Assembly (NCBI GenBank): GCA_016218085.1
Contig: JACREY010000015.1
Span: 186,001 to 250,000 of the forward strand
Length of the DNA: 64,000 nt
Direction: 5' to 3'
Source of the DNA: Ignavibacteriota bacterium
GTDB lineage: Bacteria > Bacteroidota > Ignavibacteria > Tepidaquicellales > Tepidaquicellaceae
Below are positions 7,520 to 8,200 of this stretch, in pieces. The stretch's first letter is position 1. Every line of letters starts with the position of its first letter. Both the position numbers and the translations under genes were made by a program. The notes under the pieces are model-generated. The model saw only the letters and a list, made by a program, of their open reading frames with translations. It was not told where the DNA came from and ran no database searches.

Positions 7520-7554
7520 AACTTTATTTTTTTGAGGTGTCGATCGGATTCGAA
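7520..7554 (-). repeat. 35-bp direct repeat of the tRNA-Cys 3' end (copy 1 of 2)
   Basis: Identical over 35 bp to 7885-7919, which spans the T arm, acceptor strand and downstream flank of the intact tRNA-Cys gene. The pair brackets the GIY-YIG gene like attachment-site or target duplications. Confidence 0.85.
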
Positions 7555-7600
7555 TCCATCCGCCACGGCGGATCTTCGACCACGGCGGACTCCCTTAGCC
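7535..7600 (-). pseudogene. Remnant tRNA-Cys gene with palindromic insert
   Basis: Read on the minus strand, this region matches the D arm of tRNA-Cys (AGTGGC-TAAGGGAG). It then loses the anticodon arm to a run carrying two TCCGCCGTGG-type palindromes (one is TCCGCCGTGGCGGA), and resumes with the T arm and 3' acceptor strand of tRNA-Cys. The first roughly 16 nt are replaced by the end of the GIY-YIG gene, whose TAA stop is inside the D-arm remnant. It cannot make a functional tRNA. Confidence 0.8.
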
Positions 7601-7840
7601 ACTATTAATAATTCCATTTAGGAAATCACGTCCTTTTCCAAATTTTAATTCTTTTTCTCTTTTAATTGCTTCGCTTCTAGTATTATATTCTTCTTTATAT
7701 ATTAATTCTAACGGCAATCTTGATTTTGTTGATTTGCACATTCCTGAATTATGTTTAAGTAATCTTTTTTCAAGATTACCTGTTTGACCAATATACAATT
7801 TTCCATCTTTGAGACTCTTTAATACATAAACGTGATACAT
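7595..7840 (-). CDS. GIY-YIG nuclease domain protein (UPF0213-like)
   Basis: An 81-residue single-domain GIY-YIG protein. VYVLKS matches the GIY strand, LYIGQTGNLEKRLLKHN holds the YIG strand and the catalytic Arg, and EEYNTRSEAIKREKELKF is the family's C-terminal helix with its acidic residue. It is transcribed in the same direction as the tRNA genes. It lies between two direct copies of the tRNA-Cys 3' end, and its stop codon is made from tRNA remnant sequence. Members of this small family are known as stand-alone nuclease-fold proteins of unclear function. A homing-type role is inference from the position. Confidence 0.88.
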   Translation of the reverse strand: MYHVYVLKSLKDGKLYIGQTGNLEKRLLKHNSGMCKSTKSRLPLELIYKEEYNTRSEAIKREKELKFGKGRDFLNGIINSG

Positions 7841-7860
7841 AATTTTTATTAAAAATGAAA

Positions 7861-7890
7861 AAAGTTATTCAATATTATTTGAATAACTTT
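7861..7890 (-). terminator. Intrinsic terminator after tRNA-Cys
   Basis: Perfect 12-bp stem (AAAGTTATTCAA / TTGAATAACTTT, loop of 6) just downstream of the tRNA-Cys gene on the minus strand and followed by TTTC. It separates the tRNA from the GIY-YIG gene. Confidence 0.75.
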
Positions 7891-7899
7891 ATTTTTTTG

Positions 7900-7973
7900 A
7901 GGTGTCGATCGGATTCGAACCGATGCATAACAGTTTTGCAGACTGCTCCCTTAAGCCACTTGGGTACGACACC
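7900..7973 (-). tRNA. tRNA-Cys (GCA)
   Basis: Complete 74-nt cloverleaf on the minus strand. The acceptor stem is GGTGTCG/CGACACC with discriminator U73, as expected for Cys. The D arm is CCC...GGG, the anticodon stem-loop GCAGT-CTGCAAA-ACTGT gives anticodon GCA, and the T arm contains GGTTCGAATCC. The 3' CCA is not encoded. Two damaged 5'-half copies lie directly upstream and one 3'-half remnant lies downstream. Confidence 0.95.
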
Positions 7974-8113
7974 GAATTATTTTTTTTATAGAACAGTTTT
8001 GTCCGCCGAGGCGGACTCCCTCGTACCACTTGGGTACGACACCGAATTATTTTTTTTGTAGAACAGTTTTGTCCGCCAAGGCGGACTCACTCGTATCACT
8101 TGGATACGACACT
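7974..8113 (-). repeat. Two tandem 70-bp degenerate tRNA-Cys 5'-half copies with a palindrome
   Basis: Units 7974-8043 and 8044-8113 are nearly identical to each other. Each matches the tRNA-Cys 5' acceptor strand and D arm. In both, the CAGTCTG half of the anticodon arm is replaced by TCCGCCTYGGCGGA, a perfect or near-perfect palindrome. The match then resumes with CAAAACTGTT and ends in an A/T-rich spacer. They lie immediately upstream of the intact tRNA-Cys. Confidence 0.85.
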
Positions 8114-8127
8114 CCATAAATAAAATG

Positions 8128-8200
8128 AGCGGGAAACGAGGCTCGAACTCGCGACATCAACCTTGGCAAGGTTGCGCTCTACCAACTGAGCTATTCCCGC
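8128..8200 (-). tRNA. tRNA-Gly (GCC)
   Basis: A 73-nt cloverleaf on the minus strand with acceptor GCGGGAA/TTCCCGC, D arm AGCTCAGTTGGTAGAGC, anticodon stem-loop CAACC-TTGCCAA-GGTTG (anticodon GCC), and T arm GCGAGTTCGAGCCTCGT. The discriminator is U and CCA is not encoded. It is probably the first RNA of a tRNA-Gly/tRNA-Cys transcription unit. Confidence 0.95.

Follow-up and report, generated by a model that had tools for sequence, protein, structure and literature searches.

A putative minimal homing-type cassette, consisting of a small GIY-YIG nuclease gene and a duplicated piece of its host tRNA gene

SegB, a free-standing GIY-YIG homing endonuclease of the T-even phages, cuts within tRNA genes at the motif RAWTSGAAC; it is phage-borne, has been reported without isotype preference, and occurs in tRNA-segB units that undergo tandem amplification through homologous recombination (PMC13096335). 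By our own reading, this motif is the reverse complement of the tRNA T-loop. The Ssn proteins are site-specific, single-strand GIY-YIG nucleases associated with the NTS repeats of Neisseria; they are small, single-domain proteins of genomes with dispersed palindromic repeats, and no Ssn protein is known to lie within a tRNA gene or to be accompanied by tRNA halves. In the mitochondrial atp6 gene of Allomyces, an insertion comprises a nuclease ORF that arrived together with a replacement end for the host gene, with the original end displaced. Integrative elements with attachment sites in tRNA genes likewise target a tRNA, restore a working gene, and leave a displaced half behind.

The window analyzed here (the whole stretch of 64,000 nucleotides) contains a locus that shares features with each of these systems (Table 1). 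Read along the minus strand, a tRNA-Gly gene is followed by two 70-nt units, an intact tRNA-Cys, a terminator-like hairpin, a GIY-YIG gene, and a tRNA-Cys 3' half. A prior sequence-only reading had described an 81-codon GIY-YIG gene bracketed by a 35-bp perfect direct repeat of the tRNA-Cys 3' end, and both features were recovered: the repeat extends over 40 nt at 95% identity (7520-7559 vs 7885-7924), the first 35 nt are identical, and this perfect portion, which covers non-tRNA flank as well, is far beyond chance. The far copy is, as had been proposed, a tRNA-Cys remnant with the nuclease stop codon inside the old D arm; the stop lies in GTGGC-TAA-GGGAG, which is the tRNA D-arm sequence with one T lost (intact copy: GTGGCTTAAGGGAG). 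The anticodon region of the remnant is likewise replaced by TCCGCC/GGCGGA palindromes, TCCGCCGTGG and TCCGCCGTGGCGGA (7559-7572). While this layout holds, the two tRNA-Cys 5' remnants upstream had been overlooked; each of these 70-nt units has its own TCCGCC..GGCGGA, the CAGTCTG of tRNA-Cys having turned into TCCGCC-NN-GGCGGA. A second locus in the same genome has two GIY-YIG genes flanking an intact tRNA-Asp, in the order 5' half with TCCCGAGCACTCGGGA, GIY-YIG gene (now stop-interrupted), intact tRNA-Asp, second GIY-YIG gene, and tRNA-Asp 3' half with TCCCGAGTACTCGGGA.

Table 1. Positions of the features at the tRNA-Cys locus (numbered from the first letter of the window) and of tandem arrays in other genomes.
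Feature	Position	Strand	Basis
Perfect 35-nt repeat, far copy	7520..7554	-	repeat search
Displaced tRNA-Cys 3' half, overlapping the nuclease stop codon	7534..7602	-	direct repeat; sequence
Palindrome TCCGCCACGGCGGA within the 3' half	7559..7572	.	genome palindrome search (C6:193559-193572)
Partial second palindrome in the tRNA-Cys 3' half	7580-7589		
GIY-YIG nuclease gene, 81 codons, single domain	7595..7840	-	ORF; PF01541 E=2e-15
Terminator-like hairpin between intact tRNA-Cys and nuclease gene	7853..7898	-	inverted repeat
Perfect 35-nt repeat, copy at the intact tRNA-Cys 3' end and flank	7885..7919	-	repeat search
Intact tRNA-Cys (GCA)	7899..7973	-	ARAGORN; Rfam tRNA 62.7 bits
Inner gene-less unit: tRNA-Cys 5' half, CAGTCTG replaced by palindrome 8002-8015	7974..8043	-	direct repeat, sequence
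Outer gene-less unit, same design as the inner one, palindrome 8072-8085	8044..8113	-	direct repeat, sequence
tRNA-Gly (GCC), conserved neighbour marking the site in relatives	8127..8200	-	tRNA call; relatives' loci
Tandem array	G335:C1:2945594-2947090		
Tandem array	G278:C1:120132-122174		
Tandem array	G175:C1:1733866-1734727		

The nuclease is the sole ORF in the cassette and GIY-YIG its only encoded domain; there is no integrase gene and no tyrosine HUH transposase, and an Rfam search with E up to 1 returned the two tRNAs only, with no group I intron or other known structured RNA. The cassette thereby differs from tRNA-attachment integrative elements in lacking an integrase, in its size of about 350 bp, and in its use of both 5' and 3' halves. 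The Allomyces insertion lies in a mitochondrial protein gene, whereas the cassettes described below occur at many tRNA isotypes, with duplication on either side and a palindrome swap.

The 81-aa window protein is a member of the GIY-YIG nuclease superfamily, as judged by its domain, catalytic residues, and fold match. The active-site signature is intact, and the catalytic residues Y5, Y16, G18, R26, H30, and E62 are invariant across 18 relatives. The predicted structure is a compact, confident single-domain fold (pLDDT 92), in which no DNA-binding region besides the GIY-YIG domain was found. By both sequence and fold, the nearest solved relatives are UPF0213 (1zg2, 1ywl) and SLX1, followed by I-TevI; however, the UPF0213-like genes in these genomes are not at tRNA genes and have lower scores against the subfamily profile. 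Between close nuclease pairs, dN/dS is 0.03-0.11, and the protein is therefore under selection to work.

A profile of 18 such proteins was run against 29 genomes from the family, then against 44 from the order, and the DNA around the matches was read. At 65 bits or above, 72 of the 74 loci in the 44 genomes have a tRNA gene or a piece of one on the same strand within 300 nt, and the other two are second copies inside tandem arrays. Below 57 bits only 4 of 32 loci are at a tRNA, all four being truncated copies of the same nuclease subfamily; the remaining, more distant GIY-YIG genes of these genomes, which serve as an internal control, are not at tRNA genes. Across the order, all pairs of nuclease gene and intact tRNA share a strand. 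The sequence-only reading would have been refuted had the gene been mostly away from tRNA genes, and this subfamily is found almost exclusively at them. Predicted GIY-YIG domains also occur in open frames of >1000 codons with helicase/restriction-type domains (L035, L042), with no tie to tRNA genes. At two tRNA-Leu loci (L031, L098), nuclease frames read into the tRNA, resulting in a translated-tRNA tail such as AELVDALDSKSSGT.

Sixteen isotypes are occupied (Asp, Cys, Pro, Thr, Leu, Phe, Met, Ser, Ala, Arg, Gly, Ile, Asn, Val, Gln, and Tyr), with one or a few nuclease lineages per isotype. The proposal of a minimal mobile or homing cassette inserted in a tRNA gene is supported, although the family is not Cys-specific, and insertion occurs on either side of the tRNA. 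In a wider search the arrangement recurs across the phylum, with named records in Ignavibacteria, Cloacimonadota, Patescibacteria, Balneolaceae, and the isolate Flavobacterium sp. GT3R68, which has a 5'-side cassette at tRNA-Pro (L165 1417-1813); several of these records are metagenome bins and possibly misassigned. The Flavobacterium strain is cultivated, and would be a handy experimental system for the tRNA-Pro cassette. No viral relatives of the nuclease were found and the PHROG homing-endonuclease match is weak, so a phage origin of the cassette was rejected. No description of this nuclease family was found in an open-access library, although its absence is not proven, and the locus belongs to a large, apparently undescribed family.

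Each nuclease lineage is bound to one tRNA isotype. On a tree of 75 proteins bearing 13 isotype labels, 15 changes are needed (the minimum possible is 12), while shuffled labels required a mean of 53 and never as few as 15; the tree rests on few columns, but the isotype clustering is not in doubt. This clustering can arise from nuclease specificity, from homology of the carried tRNA, or from both, which the data do not separate, and as a sign of sequence-specific cleavage of the cassette-free site, itself inferred, it is suggestive only. Unlike the situation with Ssn, the isotype link points to tRNA sequence as the target of the inferred activity. It is quite improbable, in our judgment, that the protein is instead a domesticated host nuclease of the Ssn kind, one that would process single-stranded DNA where it meets the dispersed palindromes, in DNA uptake for instance, and whose tRNA location is secondary. 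The Neisseria precedent, the palindrome families dispersed over these genomes, and the scarcity of TCCCGA palindromes in most genomes that lack a tRNA-type nuclease would fit such a role, but patchy presence, gene-less relics, and isotype tracking do not; palindrome arms common to many isotypes cannot be an isotype-specific target, and one genome (G009) has 24 palindromes and no tRNA-type nuclease.

Comparison of occupied and empty sites bears on mobility. Empty tRNA-Cys sites, whose absence would have refuted the sequence-only reading, are present in most relatives: at the tRNA-Gly/tRNA-Cys pair, which is conserved in the family, a cassette is found in three genomes (G000, the genome of the window, G003, and G004), about 16 are clean, and one (G028) has a relic without the gene. 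In this last genome (L228), a working tRNA-Cys is followed by a gene-less 3' remnant with the palindrome TTCGCCACAGCGAA, likely the relic of a lost cassette. Beside alaS in one genus, tRNA-Met has a 5'-side cassette in five genomes and none in four, and a sixth genome has a 3'-side cassette from a different nuclease lineage. Patchy presence with empty sites in relatives, as looked for in a free-standing homing gene, is thus seen at both the Cys and the Met sites. The cassette is also less diverged than alaS, in dN as well as dS, in six of six species pairs, as is looked for in horizontal spread into the same site, although alaS is the single host gene used. Together, these sequence comparisons provide good evidence for cassette gain, spread, amplification, and loss, within the limits of one host gene, and mobility is well supported by them.

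In the closely related, near-identical pair G033 (empty) and G042 (occupied), a host segment of about 106 bp is duplicated around the nuclease gene; it starts 62 bp upstream of the tRNA and runs to position 44 inside it. The outer duplicate has lost the promoter -10 region and has a palindrome where one of its tRNA stretches used to be, and the last codons of the nuclease are built from the duplicated host promoter. Tandem arrays comprise 3-5 or more near-identical nuclease units, with a period of about 315-450 bp. Upstream of a tRNA-Val (L182 1301-1500, minus-strand coordinates) are repeated 96-nt gene-less units, each combining the tRNA-Val 5' half with a palindrome and a duplicate of the upstream sequence. 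Chance duplication or an assembly artefact around a vertically inherited gene is almost certainly not the explanation; many cassette loci in draft genomes do lie at contig ends, but others are inside long contigs, in single-contig genomes (G021, G230, G278, G335), and in the Flavobacterium isolate, and isotype tracking and purifying selection speak against it as well.

The expectation that an intact tRNA copy is kept was borne out at most of the occupied sites that lie on sufficiently long contigs. This copy, which accompanies the nuclease while the displaced halves are always crippled, could be the surviving element of a cleave-and-rescue addiction, in which cognate tRNA genes lacking protection would be destroyed by the nuclease, to the detriment of any cell that loses the cassette or takes in a bare tRNA gene. 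We hold this to be very improbable: at the Met loci the retained copy is identical in occupied and empty sites and hence not recoded, so that a recoded rescue tRNA is not seen there, and gene-less relics with a working tRNA exist (L228).

The palindromes noted in the sequence-only reading are present, but they belong to repeat families dispersed over the genome. In the genome of the window, TCCGCCNNGGCGGA has 41 copies vs 0 for a reversed control, far more than chance would give, and TCCCGA(0-6)TCGGGA ranges from 0 to 72 per genome across the order (control mostly 0-5); in the contexts that were read, the palindromes mostly lie away from tRNA genes. The TCCGCCNNGGCGGA copies (e.g., L007-L021) are dispersed in AT-rich intergenic repeats, often adjoining AACTTTATAAA or CACAAAGAACG motifs, and one copy is within a larger inverted repeat (CGTTACGAA..TTCGTAACG). 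A strict dependence of the palindromes on the nuclease was not shown, as G009 attests, and a role as isotype-specific target was rejected, with identical arms (TCCCGA, TCCGCC) serving many isotypes.

In displaced tRNA halves the palindrome replaces a tRNA stretch and is not a simple insertion. Of the distinct replaced stretches that are 6 nt or longer, 19 of 24 show complementarity between their two ends over 3 nt or more, whereas random windows drawn from these tRNAs would give 0.8; examples include CGA-GT-TCG, CCA-AG-TGG, AACC..GGTT, and whole anticodon arms, and by eye the CAG-T-CTG replaced in the window also fits. The distance between the palindrome and the inner end of the half is about 8-15 nt, a spacing partly set by the method, in which matches <7 nt are undetectable. 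A single shared palindrome duplicated into both flanking remnants would fit Thr, Gly, and Ile, and was rejected on account of Asn (L112) and Cys (L022), whose left and right halves have the palindrome at different tRNA positions. To our knowledge, no process exchanges one hairpin-forming sequence for another in this manner. The palindrome may abolish a cutting site, guard against a harmful half-tRNA, or contribute to the mobility mechanism; our inference is that it probably deprives the spare half of its cutting site or its tRNA fold.

These observations could also suggest hairpin-directed, single-strand mobility, in which the nuclease acts on single-stranded or extruded DNA at hairpins, such as tRNA arms or palindromes, and the ends of the cassette consist of a palindrome together with 8-15 nt of tRNA sequence specifying the target, much like the subterminal hairpins of IS200/IS605 or REP/RAYT. 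Palindromes adjoin the cassette ends, as in those elements, although their tyrosine HUH transposase is absent; the replacement of inverted-repeat stretches, the spacing from the inner end, and the presence of SLX1, a structure-specific nuclease, among the nearest solved relatives are in keeping with it. Against this, the cassette has no strand-transfer enzyme, the GIY-YIG domain, as far as known, only hydrolyses DNA, the duplicated segments are long (about 50-110 bp), and the spacing is partly imposed by detection. We regard such mobility as possible but unlikely, and the same doubt attaches to its fuller form, a hairpin-directed element of ~350 bp with a single small nuclease, in which palindromes of the host genome replace tRNA arms and tRNA pieces of 8-15 nt at the ends of the cassette determine the tRNA gene that is entered.

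The reading we prefer, with a probability of roughly 0.68, is that of a minimal selfish homing-type cassette, made up of the small GIY-YIG gene and a duplicated piece of its host tRNA gene. The nuclease would break or nick the matching tRNA gene in a cassette-free genome, recombinational repair would copy the cassette into the cut gene from a cassette-bearing copy, and duplication of part of the target would keep one working tRNA. The arrangement observed is one intact tRNA gene, a nuclease gene, and a displaced tRNA half in which a hairpin-capable stretch has been swapped for a palindrome; DNA cleavage, the insertion mechanism, and the palindrome's role are inferred. The direct repeats may then permit tandem amplification or loss, and both arrays and gene-less relics are seen.

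By analogy, the best explanation may be that the cassette is a cellular counterpart of phage SegB, its nearest tested precedent. Both have a small intron-free GIY-YIG gene adjoining tRNA genes, whereas the cassettes lie in bacterial chromosomes, form isotype-bound lineages, have a single catalytic domain, and carry displaced tRNA halves with palindromes. Placement in the SegB group itself, which would call for a phage-encoded gene beside tRNA genes, does not hold, as the loci are chromosomal and no viral relatives were found. The cassette behaves as a free-standing homing cassette, but its membership is incomplete, with no cutting data and without the usual extra DNA-binding region. It counts against homing that, judging from the predicted structure, there is no DNA-binding region past the GIY-YIG domain, unlike in I-TevI-type homing enzymes, and that homing alone leaves the palindrome swap unexplained. 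Furthermore, at the cassette's own locus the displaced half is altered by the palindrome and the retained tRNA copy is unchanged (Met); because it is not recoded, this copy should still be open to the nuclease, barring protection by expression or context. SegB shows that such an enzyme can exist alongside tRNA genes that it is able to cut in its own locus (PMC13096335), and this lessens what is the main difficulty for the cassette.

These findings point to widespread, very small selfish elements (about 350 bp, with one 80-aa gene) within essential tRNA genes, at 16 isotypes in Bacteroidota-type bacteria and several other phyla. If hairpin-directed mobility were true after all, they would make up a new class within the smallest autonomous mobile elements, with tRNA genes in single-stranded or extruded form as their substrate. 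The swap of a palindrome for a hairpin is an unexplained, testable DNA process, and the nuclease lineages, each bound to its isotype, offer a natural series for studying target recognition by a minimal GIY-YIG domain. The cassette also accounts for many tRNA pseudogenes, small GIY-YIG annotations, and contig breaks beside tRNA genes.
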